Part shown: positions 20,036-56,772 of the stretch, one piece after another
Position numbering within the stretch: position 1 is the first letter of the stretch
How the letters are laid out: each line of letters starts with the position of its first letter
NCBI RefSeq assembly: GCF_019311235.1
Contig: NZ_JAHWDF010000003.1
Coordinates: 186,001-250,000 of the forward strand
Origin: Mesonia aestuariivivens
Lineage (GTDB): Bacteria; Bacteroidota; Bacteroidia; Flavobacteriales; Flavobacteriaceae
Direction: 5' to 3'
Length of the DNA: 64,000 bases
The notes under the pieces: generated by a model
What the model was told of the DNA's origin: nothing
What the model saw: the letters and a program-made list of their open reading frames with translations, nothing else
The model's database searches: none
Program-made: the position numbers and the translations under genes

Positions 20036-20136
20036 TTTGTAACGAAAAAATTACAAAACCGGGCTATACGCTATATCTTTTTTGCCAATGCTCTAAAACC
20101 AATTAAGCAAAAAAGGATGTCACTGCTATACCTTTT
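20036..20136. repeat. Dispersed repeat copy E1 (degenerate)
   Basis: After mscS an 8-bp inverted repeat TTTTGTAA/TTACAAAA (20036-20058) leads into CGGGCTATACGCTATATC then TTTTTTGC (to 20085), and after a 21-bp loop GCAAAAAAGGATGTCACTGC (from 20107). These two arms match those of the copies at 54548-54660 and 56659-56772, with the outer GCGC ends decayed here. Confidence 0.75.
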
Positions 20137-20137
20137 A

Positions 20138-20926
20138 CTAAGAAAACTCAGTTAAATGCCATTTTTTGAAGTAACGAAAAGCCTTTAATAATCGTGAACC
20201 ATACCAACTAAAAAACTCTCCGTCGATAAACTTTATCTTTTCTAAATCAACTTCTTTTAAAATTTCATGCTTATGTTTTTCTTGAAACGGAAAAGGTTCT
20301 GAAGAAAGCAAAATTACATCTGCATCTTTTAAATCTGTCAACTCTATTTCTGGGTAGCGATTAGTTTCAGCAAAAATATTTTCAAAATGATTAAGCCGAA
20401 GTAATTCATTTATAAAAGTATCACCAGCTGCCACCATCCAAGGTTTTCTCCAAATTAAATAAGCAACTTTTTGTTTAGGTCTGTTTTTAATAAAATCTTG
20501 AAAACTCTCTAATTCCTTTTTAATATCAGTAATAAGACAATTCGTTTTTTCTTCAATTGAGAAAATTTTTCCGTATTGACCAATCAAAACTAAGCTTTCT
20601 TCAATAGTGGAAATATTTGAAACATGAACTGGAGCAATTTGCTCTAAATCAGCAACCATTTTAGGCGTATTTTCCTCTTTATTACAAAGTATAAGGTCTG
20701 GCTGTAAAGCTTTAATTTTTTTAAGTTTCACCTCTTTTGTACCTCCTACAATTTCAACTTCTTTTTTTAAATCGGTTGGATGAACACAAAATTTTGTAAT
20801 GCCTACTAATTTTTCACGTAAGCCTAAATCAACAAGTAATTCGGTTTGACTAGGCACCAATGATATGATACGTTGAGGAGTTTTTTTCAACTGAAATGTT
20901 CGCAGTAATTGATCTTGAAATTGCAT
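20138..20926 (-). CDS. BtuF-like helical-backbone metal/cobalamin-binding protein
   Basis: Substrate-binding protein of the PF01497 type (263 residues from ATG at 20926). It has the family opening RIISLVPSQTELLVDLGLRE then LVGITKFCVHP, the middle QPDLILCNKEEN and a C-terminal DADVILLSSEPFPF. There is no signal peptide or lipobox, so it is either cytosolic or exported in an unusual way; short signal-less members are common in flavobacteria. The frame extends to a TTG at 20983, but the ATG at 20926 begins the conserved part. No transporter genes are adjacent. Ligand (cobalamin or iron complex) is not determined. Confidence 0.75.
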   Translation of the reverse strand: MQFQDQLLRTFQLKKTPQRIISLVPSQTELLVDLGLREKLVGITKFCVHPTDLKKEVEIVGGTKEVKLKKIKALQPDLILCNKEENTPKMVADLEQIAPVHVSNISTIEESLVLIGQYGKIFSIEEKTNCLITDIKKELESFQDFIKNRPKQKVAYLIWRKPWMVAAGDTFINELLRLNHFENIFAETNRYPEIELTDLKDADVILLSSEPFPFQEKHKHEILKEVDLEKIKFIDGEFFSWYGSRLLKAFRYFKKWHLTEFS

Positions 20927-38803: not shown

Positions 38804-40708
38804 CTAATTAATCTTTTGAAAACTAATACTAATTACAGTTCCTTTGTTGACAGCACTATCAATATCTAGGCTAGCATTAAGGTCTTTTATTCGTTTGTTT
38901 AAATTTTTTAAGCCGATTCCGTTTGCTTTTTCTTTAGGGTTAAAGCCAACGCCATCATCTTCATACATTAATGAAATACTATTTTCTTCTTCTATATAAT
39001 TAAATTGAATATCTACTTGTTCTGCTTGAGCGTGTTTAAGGGCATTTGTAACAAGTTCTTTAATGATATTAAATAAATTGACCTGAATAGATTCTTCTAG
39101 CTGGTTAATCTCTTCTTCAGGATGTGCATTAAAATAAAACTGTGTTTGAGTCTGTTCATGAAATTGCAACAAATACTCAGTAATTAAGGTGACGAAAGAT
39201 TGTTCTTTAAATTCTTCAGGAATTAAACTATGCGAAATTTCACGTACTTGACTATAAGTTTTGTCTAGTTGTTGCATTAATTTATCTGCAAAATCATTAT
39301 GTAAATCTACTGTGTTTAACTGTAGCTTTATAGCCGCTAAATTCCCCCCTATACTATCGTGAAGTTCTCTGGCAATTCTGCTTCTTTCATCACTTTGAGC
39401 TTGCATGGCTGTTTTGGTAAGTTTTAATTCTTGCGCTTGCTGTAAGCTTTGCATTTCTTGAATGTTAAGCAATTTTTGCTGTTCATTAAGTTTGCTTTGC
39501 GCTTGTAGTTTTTGATAATAAACTACTAATAATAATAAAATAGGAATAAGAAGTATTATAAAACCTATTAAAATAGCATTTTTAACTGTTTTTTGATGAT
39601 CTATTTCTACCTGATTTTTAAATTGTTCTGCCTGCAAGTCTACAATTTCTTGCTCTTTTTGTAGCGTTTCATATTTTTCTTCTAACTCACGTACGACACG
39701 TTCATTTTGTTGAGCAGCTATTTGGTTACTCACTTGTAGGTATTGCGTCATCAAATTAAACGCGTTTTTATAATTTTCTTTAGCAACATAAAGTTTTACC
39801 ATGGCTCTATTAATCTTCTTCTGTAATTCTAATCTATTCCACGATACCGTATTTACATAAGCGGTGCTAAATGCCACTTCAGCAATATCATAATTCTCTT
39901 GTTGTAAATAAATTTCTCCTTCATTTAAAACAGATTTAATATATAAATCGTAAAACCCTAACGCCAAAGCTTCTTTTTTTGTCTGTTGAAAAATATGAAT
40001 AGCCTTATCTATATTATTATTCATAGCTTCTAACCTACCTATATTTAATCTTACACGATAGTTAATTTTAGGCAAAGTATGAATTGCTGAATCATTCAAA
40101 ATCTCATGATACAATTCTTCAGCTTCTTTTACATTATTATCAAATAAATAAAAATCTGCTTGAGTAGCTTTTATTAAAATTTTTACAGAAGAAGTATATG
40201 GCCTGTTTTCATTTAACTTATTTAGGATAGCTTCAGCTTTTTGCAGTTGATTTCTTTGTAAATAAATTTCAGCTAAGCCCAATTTAAAATAAGCCAACAT
40301 TTCATGATTTTTTGAGGGTGTAATTTCTATACCCTTAATGTAAGAGGCAATGGCTTCATCTAGCAAGCCCATTTTCTGCTTTGCTAACCCGTCATAGTAA
40401 AATGCACGAAACTTATAAAATTGATATGTTTTTTCCTGTGGCTGAATATTTAAAACTTCACGTTGCATTTTCTTTGCATAAGTCAGTAAAGAATCTGGTA
40501 AATCTATTTGATTGAAAACTTTAGCAATCGTATCTAAACCCGTAAGTTTTTCTTGAGTGTTCTTTGCATGCTTTAATTGGTAATAAAGAGAAGGCGGTAC
40601 TTCTGAAGGAATAACCCCGTAGGCAGAAAATTTAGAATGCTTTTCTTGAGCATGAAGTTGAACAAAACAAAATAGAAATCCCCAAAAAAATATTCCTTTT
40701 AAATGCAT
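38804..40708 (-). CDS. Sensor histidine kinase with TPR sensor region
   Basis: 634 residues: signal peptide (about 1-20), an extracytoplasmic helical TPR array (about 55-350), one membrane helix (about 375-397), a coiled segment, the HisKA_3 phosphoacceptor H450 in RSRIARELHDSIGG, and a HATPase_c domain with NALKHA and GIGLKNL boxes. This layout (TPR-TM-HisKA_3) is common in Bacteroidota and pairs with LuxR-type regulators such as the next gene. A -7 box TATTTTTG (minus, 40734-40741) is 25 bp upstream. Confidence 0.94.
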   Translation of the reverse strand: MHLKGIFFWGFLFCFVQLHAQEKHSKFSAYGVIPSEVPPSLYYQLKHAKNTQEKLTGLDTIAKVFNQIDLPDSLLTYAKKMQREVLNIQPQEKTYQFYKFRAFYYDGLAKQKMGLLDEAIASYIKGIEITPSKNHEMLAYFKLGLAEIYLQRNQLQKAEAILNKLNENRPYTSSVKILIKATQADFYLFDNNVKEAEELYHEILNDSAIHTLPKINYRVRLNIGRLEAMNNNIDKAIHIFQQTKKEALALGFYDLYIKSVLNEGEIYLQQENYDIAEVAFSTAYVNTVSWNRLELQKKINRAMVKLYVAKENYKNAFNLMTQYLQVSNQIAAQQNERVVRELEEKYETLQKEQEIVDLQAEQFKNQVEIDHQKTVKNAILIGFIILLIPILLLLVVYYQKLQAQSKLNEQQKLLNIQEMQSLQQAQELKLTKTAMQAQSDERSRIARELHDSIGGNLAAIKLQLNTVDLHNDFADKLMQQLDKTYSQVREISHSLIPEEFKEQSFVTLITEYLLQFHEQTQTQFYFNAHPEEEINQLEESIQVNLFNIIKELVTNALKHAQAEQVDIQFNYIEEENSISLMYEDDGVGFNPKEKANGIGLKNLNKRIKDLNASLDIDSAVNKGTVISISFQKIN

Positions 40709-40914
40709 AAACTAGTTGGAAGCGTTGAAACCACAAAAATATAGTTTTTACGAAGTATATAACCTATGAAGCTTTACATTTTGATAATAAAAATATTGGT
40801 ATTTTAAATAGCAATTAAACCTCATTATAAAAATTACGAATTTCATAAAAATTAAACCTAAAAATACAAATTCGATAAAAGTAAAGTATTTTAACATTTT
40901 AACTGAATTAAACT

Positions 40915-40944
40915 TTGGTAAATTAAATTAATCTGTATAGTTTC
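40915..40944 (+). promoter_or_regulatory. Tentative ilv operon promoter
   Basis: TTG (40915-40917), 18-bp spacer and TATAGTTTC (40936-40944), an imperfect TAnnTTTG match. It is the best placed candidate upstream of the leader peptide, whose ATG would lie about 25 bp after the start point. Confidence 0.3.
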
Positions 40945-40975
40945 ATTAAAAATTATAAAATACATTTCATATAAA

Positions 40976-41041
40976 ATGAATCGAAACCTAACTATTATTA
41001 GCATTATTATTCTAGTCATTATTATTCCAATAATGAACTGA
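40976..41041 (+). CDS. Isoleucine-rich leader peptide of the ilv attenuator
   Basis: Open frame of 21 codons plus TGA, beginning ATG AAT CGA AAC. Nine residues are isoleucine (7, 8, 10-12, 15-17, 19), with Leu5, Leu13 and Val14; eight of the nine Ile codons are ATT. A short reading frame this rich in the end products of the operon, placed just before a terminator and 78 bp upstream of ilvD, is the hallmark of ribosome-mediated attenuation. Stalling at the Ile codons when charged tRNA-Ile is scarce would leave the RNA from 41040 free. Confidence 0.9.
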   Translation: MNRNLTIISIIILVIIIPIMN

Positions 41042-41100
41042 GAAGGTATTGCTACAATCTAATATATTGAAGCCCTTCTTTTTCCGAGAAGGGCTTTTTA
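41040..41100 (+). promoter_or_regulatory. ilv attenuator: antiterminator and terminator
   Basis: Terminator: AAGCCCTTCT (41070-41079) pairs with AGAAGGGCTT (41087-41096), then TTT. Antiterminator: GAGAAGG (41040-41046), identical to part of the terminator 3' arm, pairs with CCTTCTT (41074-41080); the pairing continues as GCT (41051-41053) with AGC (41071-41073) and CAAT (41055-41058) with ATTG (41066-41069). The two structures share the same strand and exclude each other. The antiterminator begins within the leader stop codon, so a ribosome finishing the peptide covers it and the terminator forms. Confidence 0.88.
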
Positions 41101-41118
41101 GTTTAAAAGAACAAACCC

Positions 41119-42810
41119 ATGAAACTTAATAAATTTAGTCAACGTGTTACACAAAATCCTTCACAACCTGCCTCACAGGCTATGTTGCACGCTATAGGGT
41201 TAACCGATAAAGACCTCCAAAAACCATTAATAGGAATTGGCAGTACTGGCTTCGAAGGCAACCCGTGCAATATGCACCTCAATGGTTTGGCCCAAGAAGT
41301 AAAAACAGGAATCAATAACAACGATGGTATAGGTCTAGTTTTCAATACTATAGGCGTTAGTGATGGTATTTCTATGGGGACTCCGGGAATGCGCTTTTCA
41401 CTTCCTTCTCGAGATATTATTGCCGATTCGATGGAAACTGTGGTCGAAGGAATGAGTTACGATGCGTTAGTAACAGTGGTAGGTTGCGATAAAAATATGC
41501 CAGGCGCTTTAATGGCAATGTTTCGTTTAAACCGCCCTTCTGTAATGGTTTATGGCGGAACTATTGCTCACGGAAAATTAGGTGATAAAAAATTAGATAT
41601 AGTTTCAGCCTTTGAAGCTTGGGGAGAAAAATCTGCAGGTAAAATGAAGGAGTGTGAATTCAAAAAAGTAATTCACCACGCTTGTCCAGGTCCTGGTGCT
41701 TGTGGCGGAATGTACACAGCCAACACCATGGCTTCTGCTATCGAAGCTTTAGGCTTTTCTCTTCCTTATAATGCTTCAAACCCAGCGATTGGAAATGCTA
41801 AAAAAACTGAATGTATTAAAGCAGGAGAAGCCGTGATGCAACTCTTAAAAAAAGACCTAAAACCTTCAGATATTGTTTCTAAAAAATCTTTTGAAAATGC
41901 CATTACGGTAGTGATTGCTCTAGGAGGTTCTACCAATGCGGTTTTACATTTTCTAGCCATCGCAGATGCCGCAGAAGTCGATTTTAACATGAACGATTTT
42001 CAACGTATCAGTGATCGGGTTCCTTATTTAGCAGATCTTAAACCTAGTGGAAAATACTTAATGGAAGACTTGCATAAAATTGGAGGAACTCCTGCTGTGA
42101 TGAAATATTTACTAGAGAAAGGTTATCTACACGGCGATTGCTTAACGGTAACCGGAAAAACTTTAGCTGAAAATTTAGCGGAAGTTCCTTCGCTTCCTGC
42201 AGAACAAGATATTCTTCATTCCGTAGAAAATCCGCTAAAAGCTAGTGGACATTTACGAATTCTTAAAGGAAATTTAGCTGAAGAAGGCGCTGTTGCCAAA
42301 ATTACAGGTAAAGAAGGTTTGCTTTTTACAGGAAAGGCTAAAATTTATAATGGTGAATATGAAGCTAATGATGGTATTGCTAAAGGCGAAGTAAAAGAAG
42401 GAGATGTGGTTGTTATTCGTTATGAAGGTCCTAAAGGCGGACCCGGAATGCCAGAGATGCTCAAACCAACCTCAGCCATTATGGGAAGAGGTTTAGGCAA
42501 AAAAGTAGCATTAATTACCGATGGAAGATTTTCTGGTGGCACACACGGTTTTGTTGTAGGCCATATTACCCCAGAAGCCCAAGTAGGCGGAACCATAGGT
42601 TTATTAAAAGACGGTGACAAAATCACCATTGATGCCGAAAAAAACACCATCAACGTTCATCTTTCTGAAGAAGAATTACTTCAACGTAAAAAAGAATGGA
42701 AGGCACCACCGCTAAAAGTAAGTCGCGGAGCATTATTTAAATACGCTCAATTTGTATCATCTGCATCCTTAGGATGCGTAACCGATAAAGTTTATGGAAA
42801 CACAAACTAA
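41119..42810 (+). CDS. ilvD: Dihydroxy-acid dehydratase
   Basis: Iron-sulfur enzyme of valine and isoleucine synthesis, dehydrating the dihydroxy acids to 2-oxo acids. 563 residues. Cluster cysteines are C50 (GNPCNMHL), C123 ([13 protein letters not shown]) and C195 ([16 protein letters not shown]). The C-terminal half carries [20 protein letters not shown] and the end [10 protein letters not shown]. First structural gene behind the attenuator; overlaps ilvB by 17 bp. Confidence 0.97.
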
Positions 42811-44503
42811 AACCAAAGTTATTACAGGAGCAGAAGCTGTTATAAAATGCCTTTTGCTAGAAGAAACGAACTATTTATTTGGATATCCTGGCGGAGCCAT
42901 TATGCCCGTCTACGATGCCATGTATGATTATCGCGATCGCTTAGAACACATTCTTGCTCGACACGAACAAGGAGCAATTCATGCGGCTCAAGGGTATTCA
43001 AGAATTTCTGGAAAAGTGGGCGTTTGCATCGCCACTTCTGGGCCTGGTGCGACCAACCTAATCACAGGATTGGCAGATGCACAAATAGATTCTACTGCGC
43101 TGGTTTGTATTACGGGACAAGTAGGTAGCAATTTATTAGGCACCGATGCTTTTCAAGAAACCGATGTGGTAGGTATTTCTACGCCAGTGACCAAATGGAA
43201 CGTTCAAATTACCAAAGCTAAAGACATTCCGCAAGCAATTGCAAAAGCTTTCTACGTTGCTAAAAACGGAAGACCAGGTCCTGTATTAATAGATATTACC
43301 AAAGATGCGCAGTTTGAAAGTTTCGAATTTGAATATGAGATCTGTACAAGTGTTCGCAGTTATGTACCCGACAATCCTGTAGATGAAAACCAAGTGCAAA
43401 AAGCAGCTGAACTGATTAATCAAGCCAAAAAACCTTATGTAGTTTATGGTCAAGGAGTCGTTTTAGCAGAAGCTCAAGAAGAGTTTAAAAAATTCATTGA
43501 AAAAGCAGATCTTCCTGCAGCTTGGACCATTTTGGGTATTTCTGCGCTTTCTTCACATCATCCTCTTAATATGGGAATGTTGGGAATGCACGGCAATTAC
43601 GGACCTAATTTATTAACCAACGAATGTGACGTACTTATTGCGGTTGGTATGCGATTTGACGACAGGGTTACTGGTGATTTAAGTCGCTATGCCAAACAAG
43701 CAAAAGTGATTCACCTAGAAATTGATCCTTCAGAAATTAATAAAAATGTTTATGCAGATGTTCCGGTTCTGGGTAATTGCAAGCAATCCTTACAAATGCT
43801 TACAGAGCTTTTAAAAGAAAATAAGCACGAAAACTGGAAGCAACGTTTTTACGATTGCAAGCAACAAGAATTTTTAGAAGTTGTTGAAGAAGAACTTTCT
43901 CCGTCTTTAGAAAAAGAAATGACGATGGGAGAAGTTATCAAACAAATTTCAGATAAAACATTAGGGAAGGCAATTATCGTCACCGATGTAGGTCAGCATC
44001 AAATGGCATCACAGCGTTATTATGAACATGATCAATGGCGAAGTCATGTTACTTCTGGTGGTTTAGGCACAATGGGGTTTGGCCTTCCTGCAGCTATTGG
44101 CGCCAAATTAGCAGCGCCAGATCGTGAAGTGATTTGCGTGGTGGGCGATGGCGGCTTTCAAATGACTATTCAAGAACTGGGAACTATTTTTCAATCGCAA
44201 ATAGATGTAAAAATTTTAGTGCTGAACAATGAATTTTTAGGAATGGTAAGACAATGGCAAGAATTATTTTTTGATCGTCGTTATTCATTTACAGAAATGG
44301 TAAATCCCGATTTTCAAACCATTGCCAAAGGTTATCACATTCAAACTGAAAAAATTGAACAGCGCGAAAACTTAGACGCCGCCTTAAATAAATTTCTAAA
44401 TCATAAAGGCAGCTATTTATTAGAAGTAATGGTAGGTAAAGAAAATAATGTTTTCCCCATGATTCCTTCCGGATGTAGTGTTTCTGAAGTTCGATTAAAA
44501 TAA
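42794..44503 (+). CDS. ilvB: Acetolactate synthase large subunit
   Basis: Thiamine diphosphate enzyme that forms 2-acetolactate or 2-aceto-2-hydroxybutyrate. 569 residues with the catalytic glutamate E58 in [12 protein letters not shown], the FAD/central domain, and the ThDP-Mg motif [14 protein letters not shown] followed by [12 protein letters not shown]. The small subunit gene follows 7 bp later. The 17-bp overlap with ilvD suggests coupling. Confidence 0.97.
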
Positions 44504-44510
44504 ATGAAAG

Positions 44511-45050
44511 ATGAAAGAAGAATTCACCATATCGGTTTTTACAGAAGATAAAATAGGCTTACTCAACAGAGTTAGCATTATTTTCACCAGAAGACATATC
44601 AATATCGAAAGCATCACGGCTTCTGCTAGTGAAGTTGAAGGTATTCACCGCTACATCATTGTAGTGGAAGAAGAAGAAAGTTTAGTGGTAAAAGTAATTC
44701 AGCAAATAGAAAAACAAGTAGATGTTGTCAAGGCTTTTTACCATAGAAACGACGAAATGGTTCATCAAGAAGTCGCACTTTATAAAGTACCCACTTCAGA
44801 ATTAGCATCGGGTGAAGATGTAGAAGAAATTATACGCAGCAGCAATGCACGTATTCTTACAGTTGAAGCTGAATTTACCATCATAGAAAAAACAGGGCAT
44901 AAAAAAGACACCGCCGCACTTTACCACAAATTAGAACCTTATGGATTATTAGGTTTTGTAAGATCGGGCCGTGTAGCAATTCCAAAACAGATGAAAGAAT
45001 TTAAAGAATATATGGATGAAGTTGAAAAAGCTTCAACCTTTAAATATTGA
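44511..45050 (+). CDS. ilvN: Acetolactate synthase regulatory small subunit
   Basis: 179 residues: N-terminal ACT domain (about 4-78; TISVFTEDKIGLLNRVSIIF and HINIESITASASEVEGIHRY), which binds valine for feedback, and the ALS small-subunit C-terminal domain (about 90-170). This is the IlvH-like length. Activates and regulates the IlvB subunit encoded just upstream. Confidence 0.95.
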   Translation: MKEEFTISVFTEDKIGLLNRVSIIFTRRHINIESITASASEVEGIHRYIIVVEEEESLVVKVIQQIEKQVDVVKAFYHRNDEMVHQEVALYKVPTSELASGEDVEEIIRSSNARILTVEAEFTIIEKTGHKKDTAALYHKLEPYGLLGFVRSGRVAIPKQMKEFKEYMDEVEKASTFKY

Positions 45051-45098
45051 ATTTAAAGAATAACCTTAACAATTAATAAAACTTAAATTAAAAAAATC

Positions 45099-46145
45099 AT
45101 GGCAAAATTAAATTTTGGCGGAGTAGAAGAAAATGTAGTCACCAGAGATGAATTTCCATTAGATAAGGCGGTAAAAACCTTAAAAGATGAAACCATTGCA
45201 GTTATTGGTTATGGAGTTCAAGGTCCAGGACAAGCGCTTAACTTAAAAGACAACGGGTTTAACGTAATTGTAGGACAACGCAAAAACTCGAAAACTTGGG
45301 ATAAAGCAGTAGCCGATGGATGGAAACCCGGAGAAACCCTTTTTGAGGTTGAAGAAGCCGCAAAGCGCGGAACTATCGTGCAATATTTACTTTCTGATGC
45401 CGGACAAATTGCTCAATGGGAAACGGTTAAAAAACAACTAAATCCGGGTGATGCGCTGTATTTCTCCCACGGATTTGGGATTACCTATAAAGATCAAACC
45501 GGCATCGTTCCTCCTAAAGATGTAGATGTAATTTTGGTTGCGCCAAAAGGATCTGGGACTTCTTTACGCCGACTTTTTGTAGAAGGAAAAGGCTTAAATT
45601 CTAGCTACGCCATTTTTCAAGATGCTACAGGTAAAGCTTATGATCGTGTGGTTGCCTTAGGAATTGGCGTAGGATCGGGTTACTTATTTGAAACCGATTT
45701 TCAAAAAGAAGTATATTCAGATTTAACAGGAGAACGCGGAATTTTAATGGGCGCATTAGCTGGTGTTTTTGAAGCTCAGTATGAAGTATTACGTAAAAAC
45801 GGTCATTCCCCATCAGAAGCTTTTAATGAAACCGTAGAAGAACTTACCCAAAGCTTAATGCCGTTAGTTGCAGAAAACGGAATGGACTGGATGTATGCCA
45901 ATTGTTCAACAACCGCGCAACGTGGCGCTTTAGATTGGCGACATAAATTTAAAAAAGCAACCCTTCCTGTATTTGATGAATTGTACGAAAATGTAAAAAC
46001 TGGAGAAGAAGCAAGAGTGACCATTAAAGCCAATGAAAAAGAAGATTACCGTATAAAACTAGAAGAAGAACTAAAAGAAATACGCGAATCTGAATTATGG
46101 AAAACCGGCGCACAAGTAAGAAAATTAAGACCTGAAAATAATTGA
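45099..46145 (+). CDS. ilvC: Ketol-acid reductoisomerase
   Basis: Converts acetolactate to the dihydroxy acid using NADPH and Mg. 348 residues; the nucleotide-binding loop IGYGVQGPGQALNLKDNG (36-53) is followed by RKNS (61-64), whose Arg and Ser favour NADPH. The C-terminal knotted domain has GERGILMGALAGVFEAQYE and EELTQSLMPLVAENGMDW with metal-binding acids. 48 bp after ilvN, same operon; a repeat-rich gap separates it from ilvA. Confidence 0.96.
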   Translation: MAKLNFGGVEENVVTRDEFPLDKAVKTLKDETIAVIGYGVQGPGQALNLKDNGFNVIVGQRKNSKTWDKAVADGWKPGETLFEVEEAAKRGTIVQYLLSDAGQIAQWETVKKQLNPGDALYFSHGFGITYKDQTGIVPPKDVDVILVAPKGSGTSLRRLFVEGKGLNSSYAIFQDATGKAYDRVVALGIGVGSGYLFETDFQKEVYSDLTGERGILMGALAGVFEAQYEVLRKNGHSPSEAFNETVEELTQSLMPLVAENGMDWMYANCSTTAQRGALDWRHKFKKATLPVFDELYENVKTGEEARVTIKANEKEDYRIKLEEELKEIRESELWKTGAQVRKLRPENN

Positions 46146-46523
46146 TATTAGTTCACAGGAAATAGGTTTTAGGTTTTAAAATGTTGAATAATATTCAGTT
46201 TAAAAATTAAAATTCCGAAAATCGTCAGGTCGAGTGATTTTGTAAAGTGAAACGGAACAAAATTGTATCGAGACCCGAATTTAAAATGTTTCCTCTTCAA
46301 AAGGACATGACAATCTAGGCTGGAATGGTAAAAATTTCCTTTACCTCACCCAAAACCTGAATTTATCTCGCGTTAGGGATTGAGGCTTTGTTGGAGCTCT
46401 TTTTGTTTTGTTATTTCGAGCGGAGTCGAGAAACAAAACAAAAAAGCGACTGCCGAAAGCCCGACCCGTAGGGAAACGCCCAAAAATAAAACATAAAATG
46501 CTGCTCAATAATTTCAATTTACG
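46146..46523. repeat. Repeat-filled ilvC-ilvA intercistronic region
   Basis: 378 bp with no gene. At 46223-46278 there is an imperfect palindrome (GTCAGGTCGAGTGATTTTGT ... ACAAAATTGTATCGAGACC) of a kind I recognise as a flavobacterial dispersed repeat. At 46369-46482 lies a copy of the arm-type element (E2): left arm GCGTTAGGGATTGAGG, a nested TTTCGAGCGGAGTCGAGAAA palindrome flanked by TTTTGTTTTGTT/AACAAAACAAAA, and right arm GCCCGACCCGTAGGG then AAACGCCC. Confidence 0.75.
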
Positions 46524-47786
46524 ATGAAAACGAAAATTTCACCTCAACTTTTACTAGCCGATGTTAAAAAAGCACAAGAGAACTTAGAAGGTATTGCTAA
46601 AAACACTCCTTTAGAATTAAACAGAAGTTATTCTAAAGATTTTGATGCGCAGATTTTCTTAAAACGAGAAGATCAGCAGCGGGTAAGATCTTACAAAATT
46701 AGAGGAGCTTACCATAAAATTGTTTCGCTTTCTGCTGAAGAAAGACAGCAGGGTGTGGTTTGTGCTAGTGCAGGTAATCATGCACAAGGGGTAGCTTATT
46801 CGTGTAAAAAATTAGACATCTCGGCTAAAATATTTATGCCAACTCCTACTCCACTTCAAAAAGTACAACAGGTGCGAATGTTTGGCGAAGATAAAGTAGA
46901 GGTGATTCTTATAGGTGACACTTTTGACGATGCTAAATTGGAAGCTATGCGTTATAGTGAAATGCATAATAGCACGATTATTCATCCGTTCGATGATCGT
47001 AAAATTATGGAAGGTCAAGGTACCATTGCGCTAGAAATCTTAACGGCATCGGAAGAACCTATAGATTATGTATTTGTTCCTATTGGCGGCGGCGGAGTAG
47101 CTTCTGGAGTGAGTAGTATGTTTAAATTGCTTTCTCCGCACACAAAAATCATTGGAGTAGAGCCCAAAGGCGCGGCATCGATGTCAACTTCTATTCTTAA
47201 TAATGAAAACACAGAACTTCAACTTATTGATAAGTTTGTAGATGGTGCAGCGGTTAAAAAAGTGGGAGAGCTTACGTTTCAAATTTGTAAACAAAATTTA
47301 GAAAAAGTAGTCACGGTAGATGAAGGTAAAATTTGCGAAACCATTCTTAATCTTTACAACCGTGATGCTATTGTGGTTGAACCTGCAGGCGCTTTAACAC
47401 TAGCCGTACTTGAACAATTTGCTGAAGAGATTAAAGGAAAAAATGTAGTTTGTTTAATTAGTGGCGGTAATAACGACATTACCCGAATGGAAGAAATTAA
47501 AGAACGAGCGCTTCTTTACAACGGTCTTAAACATTATTTTTTGGTGAAATTCCCTCAACGTGCTGGCGCTTTAAAACAATTTGTAGTAGACATATTGGGT
47601 CCTGATGATGACATTACTCATTTTGAATACATTAAAAAGAATTCTAGAGAAAAAGGACATGCTGTTGTGGGGATCGAATTGAAACAAAAAGAAGATTTTG
47701 ATCCTCTATTAAATCGAATGAAAGACTTTCAGTTTTATGGAGATTATATTAACGATAAAGAAAGTTTAATGAGTATTTTAATTTAG
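46524..47786 (+). CDS. ilvA: Threonine dehydratase (biosynthetic)
   Basis: PLP enzyme making 2-oxobutyrate for isoleucine synthesis. 420 residues; PLP lysine K58 in VRSYKIRGAY, the phosphate loop VPIGGGGVASG and SGGNNDI near the end of the catalytic domain. The C-terminal regulatory domain (about 335-420) is a single ACT-like unit (HYFLVKFPQRAGALKQFVVD), as in the shorter IlvA class, rather than the two of E. coli IlvA. Last gene of the ilv group. Confidence 0.96.
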   Translation: MKTKISPQLLLADVKKAQENLEGIAKNTPLELNRSYSKDFDAQIFLKREDQQRVRSYKIRGAYHKIVSLSAEERQQGVVCASAGNHAQGVAYSCKKLDISAKIFMPTPTPLQKVQQVRMFGEDKVEVILIGDTFDDAKLEAMRYSEMHNSTIIHPFDDRKIMEGQGTIALEILTASEEPIDYVFVPIGGGGVASGVSSMFKLLSPHTKIIGVEPKGAASMSTSILNNENTELQLIDKFVDGAAVKKVGELTFQICKQNLEKVVTVDEGKICETILNLYNRDAIVVEPAGALTLAVLEQFAEEIKGKNVVCLISGGNNDITRMEEIKERALLYNGLKHYFLVKFPQRAGALKQFVVDILGPDDDITHFEYIKKNSREKGHAVVGIELKQKEDFDPLLNRMKDFQFYGDYINDKESLMSILI

Positions 47787-47932
47787 ATAAAGAGGAAGAT
47801 ATTTGAAACACCTTTTAATAAATACGCTCTATTCTTATGAATTAACAATTTACTCTTCTAAAATTTATGGTTTTTTGAAAATAAATTCAGAAATTTAGAA
47901 CAGAATAAAACTTACTAAGACGATAAAACCAT

Positions 47933-49846
47933 ATGAGTAATTACCACATTAAACATCTAGAAGAATATTTTCAAGTTTATAGAAAATCGGTTAGGCATCC
48001 AGAGAAGTTCTGGGAAGAAATTGCTGAAGAGCATTTTTTATGGCGTAAACCTTGGGATAAAGTTTTAGAATGGGATTTTACCAAACCTGAAGTCAAATGG
48101 TTTCAAGGCGCTAAATTGAATATAACAGAAAATTGTATCGACAAACATTTATTTTCTCACGGAGATGATACCGCCATTATTTTTGAACCTAATAACCCCG
48201 ATGAAGAAGCTTTACACATTTCTTACTACGAATTACATAAACGGGTCTGCAAGTTTGCTAATGTTTTAAAAAGCAAAGGCATAAAAAAAGGAGACCGCGT
48301 TTGTATTTATTTACCTATGATACCCGAATTATCTGTGGCTATGTTGGCGTGCGCTAGAATAGGAGCCATTCATTCTATTGTATTTGCAGGTTTTTCTTCT
48401 TCAGCGTTAGCTACTAGAATTTTAGATAGTGACTGTAAAATGGTTATCACTTCAGATGGTTCTTACCGAGGAGCTAAGACTATCGATCTAAAAAGTATAG
48501 TAGATGCCGCATTAGAAAAATGTCCAGGTGTAGAAAATGTCTTAGTTGCCAAAAGAATTGATTCTGATATCAAGTTAAAAGAAGGTCGTGATGAATGGCT
48601 TCAACCATTATTAGATGAAGCTGAAGAAGATTGTAAACCAGAAATGATGGATGCGGAAGATCCTTTATTTATTCTTTACACATCAGGTTCTACCGGTAAA
48701 CCAAAAGGAATGATGCATACCTGCGGTGGTTATATGGTTTACACCGCCTATACGTTTAAAAATGTATTTAATTACAGAACGGGAGATGTATATTGGTGTA
48801 CAGCAGATATTGGCTGGATAACGGGGCATAGTTATATTATTTACGGTCCGTTAGCCAATTGCGCTACTACCGTGATGTTCGAAGGTGTACCAAGTTATCC
48901 AGATTTCGGACGTTTTTGGGATATTGTAGAAAAGCATAAAGTAAATCAATTTTATACTGCTCCAACAGCGATTAGAGCTTTAGCTAAAGAAAATATTGAA
49001 TACATAGAAACGCACGATCTTTCTTCTTTAAAAGTTTTAGGTTCTGTTGGAGAGCCTATTAATGAAGAAGCTTGGCACTGGTATAACGATAATGTTGGAA
49101 AGAAAAATTGCCCTATTGTAGATACTTGGTGGCAAACAGAAACTGGCGGAATTATGATCTCACCGCTACCACATTCTACACCAACCATTCCTACCTACGC
49201 GACTTTACCATTACCCGGTATTCAACCAGCATTAATGGATGAAGAGGGCAATGAGCTAGAAGGTTACCAAGTGCAAGGAAAACTCTGTATTAAATTCCCT
49301 TGGCCGGGGATGGCTAGAACCGTTTGGGGAGATCACGAACGTTATAAGGACACTTATTTTTCAGCTTATAAAAACAAGTATTTCTCTGGTGATGGTGCGT
49401 TGAGAGATAATGTTGGTTATTACAGAATTACCGGTCGCGCCGATGATGTGGTTATAGTTTCTGGTCATAATTTAGGAACCGCTCCTATTGAAGATGCTAT
49501 TAATGAACACCAAGCTGTAGCAGAATCTGCAATTGTAGGTTATCCTCACGAAGTTAAAGGAAACGCACTTTACGGTTATGTGATTTTAAAAGAAGCTGGT
49601 GCCTCTCGTAAACATGAAAATGTAAGAAAAGAAATTAATCAACTCATTACAGAACATATTGGACCCATTGCTAAGCTGAATAAAATTCAGTTTGTTTCTG
49701 GCTTACCAAAAACACGTTCAGGAAAAATTATGCGACGAATTTTACGCAAAATAGCCAGTAATGACACTGATAGTTTAGGTGATACAAGTACACTATTAAA
49801 CCCTGAAGTAGTTGAAGAAATTATTGAAAATTCTTTAAATAAATAA
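47933..49846 (+). CDS. acs: Acetyl-CoA synthetase
   Basis: AMP-forming acetate-CoA ligase of 637 residues. It has the ANL motif YTSGSTGKPKGMMHT, GWITGHSYIIYGPL, DTWWQTETGG and the C-terminal hinge/catalytic sequence PKTRSGKIMRRILR, where K598 is the lysine commonly controlled by acetylation in this family. Cytosolic; scavenges acetate. Separated from ilvA by 146 bp, followed by a terminator. Confidence 0.97.
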   Translation: MSNYHIKHLEEYFQVYRKSVRHPEKFWEEIAEEHFLWRKPWDKVLEWDFTKPEVKWFQGAKLNITENCIDKHLFSHGDDTAIIFEPNNPDEEALHISYYELHKRVCKFANVLKSKGIKKGDRVCIYLPMIPELSVAMLACARIGAIHSIVFAGFSSSALATRILDSDCKMVITSDGSYRGAKTIDLKSIVDAALEKCPGVENVLVAKRIDSDIKLKEGRDEWLQPLLDEAEEDCKPEMMDAEDPLFILYTSGSTGKPKGMMHTCGGYMVYTAYTFKNVFNYRTGDVYWCTADIGWITGHSYIIYGPLANCATTVMFEGVPSYPDFGRFWDIVEKHKVNQFYTAPTAIRALAKENIEYIETHDLSSLKVLGSVGEPINEEAWHWYNDNVGKKNCPIVDTWWQTETGGIMISPLPHSTPTIPTYATLPLPGIQPALMDEEGNELEGYQVQGKLCIKFPWPGMARTVWGDHERYKDTYFSAYKNKYFSGDGALRDNVGYYRITGRADDVVIVSGHNLGTAPIEDAINEHQAVAESAIVGYPHEVKGNALYGYVILKEAGASRKHENVRKEINQLITEHIGPIAKLNKIQFVSGLPKTRSGKIMRRILRKIASNDTDSLGDTSTLLNPEVVEEIIENSLNK

Positions 49847-54547: not shown

Positions 54548-54660
54548 GGGCGCAACCCTAACGGGTCGGGCTATACGCTATATCTTTTTTGCAAATCACT
54601 TCGAGCGAAATAAAAATTTCATACATAAGCAAAAAAGGATGCCGCTACTATCCCTTGCGC
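54548..54660. repeat. Dispersed repeat copy E3 between leuA and leuC
   Basis: Left arm GGGCGCAACCCTAACGGGTC then GGGCTATACGCTATATC and TTTTTTGC; a loop containing a remnant CACTTCGAGCG; right arm GCAAAAAAGGATGCCGCTAC then TATCCCTTGCGC. TTTTTTGC and GCAAAAAA can pair. It fills nearly all of the leuA-leuC gap. Confidence 0.85.
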
Positions 54661-54678
54661 AAATAAAAAATCATTCAC

Positions 54679-56061: not shown

Positions 56062-56651
56062 TGGAAAAATTTATTACACTTACACATACCGCGGTTCCGT
56101 TAGAAATGGAGAATATTGATACCGACCAAATTATTCCTGCTCGGTTTTTAAAAGCTACTGATAAAGCTGGTTTTGGTGATAACTTATTTAGAGATTGGCG
56201 TTATGATCAAGAAGAAAATTTGAAAAAAAACTTTCCGTTAAATCAAGAAAAATACCAAGGTGAAATTTTAGTAGCTGGCGATAATTTTGGTTGCGGCTCT
56301 AGTCGTGAGCACGCGGCTTGGGCAATTAAAGCTTACGGATTCAAAGTAGTTGTATCTAGCTATTTTGCCGATATTTTTAAAGGAAATTCATTAAATAATG
56401 GTTTACTTCCTGTACAAGTAAGTCCTAATTTTTTAATGGAAACCTTTAAAGCTATCGAAGAAAAACCAACTACAAAAATAAAGATCGATTTAGAAAATCA
56501 GGTGATTAAACTCATTGATAAAAATTTAGAAGAAAAATTTGAAATTGATACTTATAAAAAAATGTGTTTGATCAATGGTTTTGATGATATTGATTTCTTA
56601 GTAAATAAACTAGACAAGATTAAAACTTTTGAAAAACACCAAACTTTATAA
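56061..56651 (+). CDS. leuD: 3-isopropylmalate dehydratase small subunit
   Basis: Aconitase swivel-domain subunit, 196 residues. Motifs [13 protein letters not shown] and [16 protein letters not shown] (substrate-binding loop) are typical. Overlaps leuC by one base, indicating coupled synthesis of the heterodimer. Confidence 0.97.
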
Positions 56652-56658
56652 TTAATGT

Positions 56659-56772
56659 GCGCAAGGGATAGCAGTGGCATCCTTTTTTGCTCCATGAAAG
56701 ACTTCTCGACTCCGCTCGAAGTGACAAGCAAAAAAGATATAACGGATAGCCCGACCCGATAGGGTTGCGCCC
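56659..56772. repeat. Dispersed repeat copy E4 between leuD and leuB
   Basis: Same element as E3 in inverted orientation: GCGCAAGGGATAGCAGTGGC then ATCCTTTTTTGC, a nested CTTCTCGACTCCGCTCGAAG palindrome with TGACA (56702-56726), then GCAAAAAAGATATAACGG and ATAGCCCGACCCGATAGGG ending in TTGCGCCC. The 29 bp at 56698-56726 are identical to 16167-16195 inside icmF. Confidence 0.88.

Follow-up and report, generated by a model that had tools for sequence, protein, structure and literature searches.

Predicted leader-peptide attenuators upstream of ilvD in Mesonia aestuariivivens and related Bacteroidota

The ilv locus and its leader

The window, by which we mean the whole stretch of 64,000 nucleotides of Mesonia aestuariivivens DNA analyzed here, carries ilvD, ilvB, ilvN, ilvC and ilvA on its forward strand. 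All five genes score above the cut-offs of the NCBIfam models so named, which bears out the order ilvD-B-N-C(-A) proposed in an earlier note on this DNA. The upstream neighbor is divergent (frame 38804-40708, minus strand). The features of the locus are as follows.

40914-40917 and 40936-40944, + strand: alternative candidate promoter (TTTG and TATAGTTTC, respectively), read by eye; 5' UTR of about 27 nt
40961-40968, + strand: candidate -7 promoter box TACATTTC, one mismatch to the consensus TAnnTTTG; begins 15 nt before the leader ATG
40976-41041, + strand: leader peptide MNRNLTIISIIILVIIIPIMN, 21 codons with nine Ile, two Leu and one Val
40999-41023, + strand: RNA segment 1, inside the Ile codons; with its partner 41029-41054 it makes up the protector hairpin 1:2
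41040-41058, + strand: RNA segment 2, antiterminator 5' strand; starts in the stop codon and holds the first copy of GAGAAGG
41066-41080, + strand: RNA segment 3, antiterminator 3' strand (41066-41080) and terminator 5' arm (41069-41080)
41086-41099, + strand: RNA segment 4, terminator 3' arm with the second copy of GAGAAGG; T run at 41095-41099
41119-42810, + strand: ilvD, dihydroxy-acid dehydratase, predicted first controlled gene (TIGR00110)
42794-44503, + strand: ilvB, acetolactate synthase large subunit (TIGR00118)
44511-45050, + strand: ilvN, acetolactate synthase small subunit (TIGR00119)
45099-46145, + strand: ilvC, ketol-acid reductoisomerase (TIGR00465)
46524-47786, + strand: ilvA, threonine ammonia-lyase (NF006390)

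The leader ORF runs from the ATG at 40976 to the TGA at 41039-41041, and direct reading of the letters gives the 21 codons and the composition that the earlier note had reported. In this short ORF, codons for the product of the operon behind it are thus abundant (9 Ile, 1 Val and 2 Leu among 21), and ilvD, B, N, C and A make the amino acid that would be sensed. Given the gap of 378 nt between ilvC and ilvA, co-transcription of ilvA with ilvDBNC is possible. A whole-genome domain search found no LeuA_dimer domain in this genome, though ilvDBNCA is present; this is consistent with a pathway for Ile and Val, and leucine may be imported or made by another route. Elsewhere in the 64-kb window there are three Flavo-1 RNAs (function unknown), at 20053-20143 (minus strand), 54560-54668 (minus strand) and 56646-56760 (plus strand).

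Three competing hairpins in the leader RNA

Folding places the antiterminator 2:3 at 41040-41046/41074-41080, 41051-41053/41071-41073 and 41055-41058/41066-41069, fourteen pairs in all with an energy of -10.9 kcal/mol (z -2.6; equalled in 3 of 200 shuffles), and thereby bears out the 14-pair stem, beginning within the stop codon, that had been read from the letters. The terminator 3:4 (41069-41080/41086-41097, -17.5 kcal/mol, z -5.3) was equalled in none of 200 shuffles. The T run and the RNA segment shared with the antiterminator (41069-41080) were as previously described, whereas the stem has 12 pairs upon folding rather than the 10 given before; the T run is short (TTTTT, 41095-41099), and three of these T lie inside the terminator stem. 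GAGAAGG does occur twice, at 41040-41046 and 41086-41092, once in each competing structure, as the earlier note had pointed out. That note had called the attenuator complete on the strength of the reading frame, antiterminator and terminator, but had overlooked the protector hairpin 1:2, which comprises 22 pairs between 40999 and 41054 with an energy of -15.8 kcal/mol (region 40976-41060: z -2.6, equalled in 3 of 200 shuffles). With the protector added, all three hairpins of a trp-type attenuator (1:2, 2:3 and 3:4) are present.

A predicted intrinsic terminator therefore lies between the leader ORF and ilvD, an antiterminator shares its 5' arm, and the protector 1:2 lies within the leader ORF. 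The minimum free energy fold of the entire leader is 1:2 plus 3:4, which is the state expected by default without translation; the antiterminator would thus depend wholly on the position of the ribosome. The spacing suits such dependence: with a ribosome footprint of the length found in E. coli, a ribosome at the stop codon would cover segment 2 and one stalled at the regulatory codons would not.

Leaders upstream of ilvD in relatives

We collected sequences of up to 700 nt upstream of ilvD from named genomes, where the best 80 of at least 594 ilvD loci were used, and from genomes of the family, where 110 of 149 had an ilvD match and 109 loci (30 + 79) were taken, one genome (G062) being left out with its ilvD split over contigs. 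After removal of two duplicate and two too-short regions, 185 distinct ones remained. Two regions of the family sample proved identical to loci of named Flavobacteriaceae (L102 = L011, Meridianimaribacter flavus; L099 = L010), which identifies the sampled family as Flavobacteriaceae. Each region was given a score, defined as the maximal count of Ile, Val and Leu within a 14-codon span of an ATG ORF (9-40 codons) with a terminator hairpin after it. Scores of at least 9 were found in 54/185 real regions vs 1/185 reverse complements and 3/925 shuffles.

The unit finder returned 105 raw units in 88 of the 185 regions; dropping three artefacts left 102, and a further seven were removed by eye as not being Ile/Val leaders (L107, L104, L017, L024, L052, L062 and L130). 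Ninety-five units of an Ile/Val leader and a terminator were thus kept. They occupy 81/185 regions (22/78 named, 59/107 family, window included), a figure that gives no phylum-wide frequency, since the named set consists of the best 80 of at least 594 loci. The conservation of Ile-rich peptides in relatives, which had been put forward as a check, is accordingly positive. Dokdonia, Winogradskyella, Gaetbulibacter, Aquimarina, Lutibacter, Arenibacter and Flavobacterium are among the positive named taxa, together with four Saprospiraceae MAGs, an Ignavibacteriae MAG and a Segetibacter MAG; in L049, the Segetibacter unit, a leader and a terminator are present but no antiterminator is visible. No unit was detected in 104/185 regions. 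A long same-strand frame ends within 100 nt of ilvD in 32/104 of these vs 1/81 positives, and in those 32 ilvD may sit inside an operon; the other 72 have no such frame close to ilvD.

By terminator arm the units fall into class A (CCTTCC-like, 57 units, including that of the window), class B (CCTGTATC-like, 28) and other (10). Synonymous bias in 25 class-A leaders was only moderate, with 629 synonymous vs 1028 non-synonymous single-base codon differences, counted over non-independent pairs. Codons for branched-chain amino acids (BCAA) are most frequent 5-12 codons ahead of the stop, the last codon of the BCAA pair begins 9-15 nt before the stop in 68/95 units, and the median distance from the stop's first base to the beginning of segment 2 is +2 nt (78/95 units, those with a duplex of -6 kcal/mol or lower).

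Competing strands should fit their own partners better than those of other loci, and they do. The mean pairing energy of segment 2 was -7.93 kcal/mol with the terminator 5' arm of its own unit vs -5.99 (sd 0.20) with permuted arms (102 units), and none of 10,000 permutations was as low; duplexes of -8 or lower were formed by 51/102 own pairs vs 10% of base-shuffled ones. The preference is clear in L023, L028 (first unit), L048 and L070, whose arms are unusual. The antiterminator duplex was weaker than -5 kcal/mol in 13/95 units, and L049, L096 and L020 have almost none. Segment 1 with its own segment 2 gave -10.18 kcal/mol vs -8.06 (sd 0.24) for swapped partners (0/10,000) and -7.54 for codon-order shuffles (95 units); by class, swapped sets did as well in 0 (A), 0 (B) and 24 (other) of 10,000 permutations. 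The conservation of the stems, the second check proposed earlier, is thus favorable in that antiterminator and protector strands prefer their own partners (0/10,000 each), in tests that compare own with swapped pairing, rather than pair-by-pair covariation on an alignment, and that take no account of kinship.

Proposed mechanism

The element of the window comprises the peptide, three competing hairpins and their spacing, it recurs with matching partners in relatives, and it precedes a matching operon. From these features we infer leader translation, termination and relief by Ile limitation. When Ile is ample, a ribosome at the stop codon would cover segment 2 (41040 onward), 3:4 would form, and transcription would stop before ilvD. 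When Ile-tRNA is scarce, the ribosome would stall in the Ile codons at 40994-41032, 3 to 15 codons ahead of the stop; the stalled ribosome would open 1:2 and leave segment 2 free, 2:3 would pair, and RNA polymerase would continue into ilvD. In an untranslated leader, 1:2 would sequester segment 2, and the terminator would form.

We consider this element a predicted trp/ilv-type ribosome-mediated attenuator of ilvDBNC(A) that senses charged tRNA-Ile, perhaps also tRNA-Val, with a probability of roughly 0.9. The attenuator reading of the earlier note is thus well supported in silico by anatomy, shuffles, relatives and own-partner stems. The attenuator is very probably functional, and ordinary in kind.

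The amino acid signal and alternative explanations

Ile accounts for 30% of leader residues (n = 1772) vs 9% in control ORFs (n = 6805), and Val for 14% vs 5%, whereas Leu is rarer in leaders (6% vs 13%). The units were picked on Ile, Val and Leu jointly, which makes the contrast with Leu the telling part. Leucine was rejected as the signal on this count, and because no LeuA dimer domain was found in the genome. Isoleucine as the signal, as first proposed, is supported in that Ile is enriched across relatives; Val is enriched too. It is possible, if rather doubtful, that the same device responds chiefly to valine or to a joint Ile/Val pool. The enrichment of Val beside Ile in the 95 units and a Val at position -6 before the stop in 44/95 would suit such a signal, but the window peptide holds nine Ile to one Val, and the operon is adjoined by ilvA, which serves Ile specifically.

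The attenuator reading has transcription as the controlled step. The leader peptide or its translation might instead act on ilvD translation or mRNA stability, as a reinitiation uORF or a trans-acting peptide. There are precedents for both: a trans-acting leader peptide, peTrpL, is on record, and reinitiation has been proposed at leader genes (PMC4833913). The arrangement of the units makes this improbable. The distance from the leader stop to ilvD is 71-486 nt (median 272; 77 in the window) and at least 200 nt in 83/95 units, and the terminator within this interval fits control at the level of transcription, as does the competition of the structures for its 5' arm.

A chance Ile-rich ORF before an ordinary intrinsic terminator, without translational regulation, is more improbable still. 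AT-rich DNA yields many ATT codons, and the window has other short hydrophobic ORFs (at least 9 BCAA per 14 codons in 15 ATG frames, leader counted; 13 by distinct stop). The addition of a terminator, however, leaves few such sites. The real leader has a scan score of 11; in 2000 dinucleotide shuffles of 40709-41118, scores of at least 5, 6 and 7 were reached in 10, 4 and 0 cases, respectively. The whole 64 kb, both strands included, has a single further ORF with a terminator at a score of at least 8 (score 8, at 2377 on the plus strand), which lies antisense within a 620-codon frame and looks like chance. Shuffles, reverse complements and the remainder of the window are thus all against a pure chance origin, as are the fit of the strands to their own partners and the His, Phe and Trp leaders that precede matching genes; we regard it as very unlikely.

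Finally, control of the operon by a T-box or a metabolite riboswitch, with an incidental ORF, can practically be set aside. In other phyla ilv genes are under T-boxes. T-boxes are also described ahead of ileS in Actinobacteria (PMC1262725). The element here matched no Rfam family at gathering level, and the 11 unrelated hits at E values up to 10 included no T-box. Searches of 12 relatives gave only two SAM-II hits, both antisense to ilvD and at a distance from the leaders, and no match to a T-box, riboswitch or other known RNA family over the ilv unit. The leader genes are also shorter than ordinary gene calling detects.

The two SAM-II riboswitches (L022, 833-892, minus strand; L179, 783-872, plus strand) are on the strand opposite ilvD and each probably serves a divergent gene.

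Promoter candidates and the 5' UTR

The box TACATTTC would place the transcript start about 3 nt ahead of the leader ATG. For F. johnsoniae, boxes lying 4 or 5 nt ahead of the transcript start have been interpreted as probable promoters (PMC6847099). A box matching TAnnTTTG with no more than one mismatch, beginning at -19 to -11 from the leader ATG, was found for 59/81 first ilv leaders, vs 13/185 ilvD starts and 5/46 window ORFs of at least 150 aa as controls; in windows moved 10-40 nt further up it was found in 16-24/81. Exact boxes are few (6/81 first leaders vs 0-5/81 in shifted windows). Since most transcripts of F. johnsoniae have leaders of more than 10 nt (PMC6847099), the 5' UTR of many ilv leaders would be unusually short. 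The same box was found for 4/21 his, 9/26 phe and 13/30 trp leaders; these low counts weaken "near-leaderless" as a rule for ilv, his, phe and trp, and "short 5' UTR" is the safer term. A sigma-70 promoter was considered and rejected, hits in 40700-48000 being at background (20 found vs 20.6 expected). The attenuator transcript of Sinorhizobium meliloti trpL is reported to begin at the leader ATG, like the near-leaderless start proposed for the ilv leader, although that system is specific for Trp and belongs to an alphaproteobacterium (PMC7298713).

His, Phe/Tyr and Trp leaders

In this genome, hisG (HHHHIHFH; L191), pheA (FYFYFFF; L192) and trpE (TWWW; L193) are each preceded by a matching leader and a terminator. 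No leader was seen upstream of a second, weaker PF04715 gene (L194). Among family loci, a scan carried out without a shuffle control found matching leaders for 30/30 trpE, 26/30 pheA and 21/30 hisG; the 30 loci in each set are the best-scoring ones, with matches in 49 (his), 51 (phe) and 56 (trp) of 60 genomes. Trp-rich leaders at 30/30 scanned trpE loci suggest that the mechanism is common in the phylum. From these sequences, leader-peptide attenuation in the family seems widespread, and it has so far been noticed only briefly.

Genome G053, from the genus of the window organism, matched neither ilvD nor the pheA PDT domain, and the trpE domain only weakly; it retains hisG with an HHHH leader (L197). 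Some amino-acid auxotrophy may thus exist inside the genus.

Relation to known attenuators

Enteric ilvGMEDA, ilvBN, trp, his and pheA are controlled by leader-peptide attenuators. Shared with these are product-matched codons, the 1:2 protector, the 2:3 antiterminator, the 3:4 terminator and an antiterminator strand near the stop codon. The units described here differ in belonging to another phylum, in promoter and initiation signals of the Bacteroidota type and in tandem copies in some relatives; we claim no sequence similarity. A comparative paper by Vitreschak and others (2004) reportedly mentions Bacteroidetes. Our literature search found no report of a Bacteroidota ilv attenuator, of this ilvD unit or of tandem ilv attenuators, an earlier prediction in 2004 being possible.

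The earlier note gave such designs as known in Proteobacteria, which is correct but too narrow, as they have also been reported in Actinobacteria, Firmicutes and Flavobacterium. In 2010, leader-peptide systems were described as shown only in Proteobacteria and Actinobacteria, with Firmicutes added by that paper (PMC2965389). A 2021 study of Flavobacterium psychrophilum reported "strong clues" that amino-acid operons there are subject to attenuation by upstream leader peptides, and noted that the 5' elements of pheA and hisG occur in other genera as well (PMC9723704); these elements agree with the pheA and hisG leaders found in this family. Its main text does not mention ilv, and its section on attenuation has no structures or tandem units (PMC9723704). 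Attenuation clues in Flavobacterium are thus already known, and the ilvD attenuator is a further case of that sort. In Bacteroides thetaiotaomicron, of the same phylum, short ORFs in 5' UTRs were described as reminiscent of leader peptides; the example given is a hypothetical-protein gene, and ilv is absent from the main text (PMC7366714). The ilvBNC operon of Corynebacterium glutamicum is likewise an ilv operon with a three-hairpin attenuator, and its discussion invokes leaderless-mRNA initiation, but it is actinobacterial and differs in sequence and gene order (PMC11857589). With the units described here, a textbook mechanism can be tested directly in a phylum whose primary sigma factor is different and in which Shine-Dalgarno initiation plays a small part.

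Predicted tandem attenuators

Two units in series precede ilvD in 14 of the 81 positive regions, as class A followed by class B in 12 and as other followed by class A in 2 (L118, L171, L022, L025, L103, L105, L122, L124, L126, L132, L140, L152, L023 and L028). The second ATG lies 9-48 nt past the first terminator hairpin, and a -7 box close to the ATG, as in the first leaders, was found for only 2/14 second leaders; being close to the first terminator and mostly boxless, the second leaders are probably transcribed from the promoter of the first unit. In Salmonella mgtCBR, tandem attenuators have been described in which a single leader contains two short ORFs and stem-loops that control transcription; mgtCBR concerns Mg2+ transport and virulence and is not an amino-acid operon (PMC3641672); the ilv tandems have Ile/Val codons in both units.

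Judging from the sequences, we lean slightly towards the view that Flavobacteriaceae, largely without Shine-Dalgarno sites, use classical attenuators with leaders near the transcript start to control trp, phe, his and ilv, and that a subset would place ilv under two complete Ile/Val attenuators in series (the second mostly boxless), a serial gate that would pass only if both stall. Least expected of all is the tandem form, and relatives that have it offer a natural test of how two same-sense attenuators in series shape the response. The window itself has a single unit.
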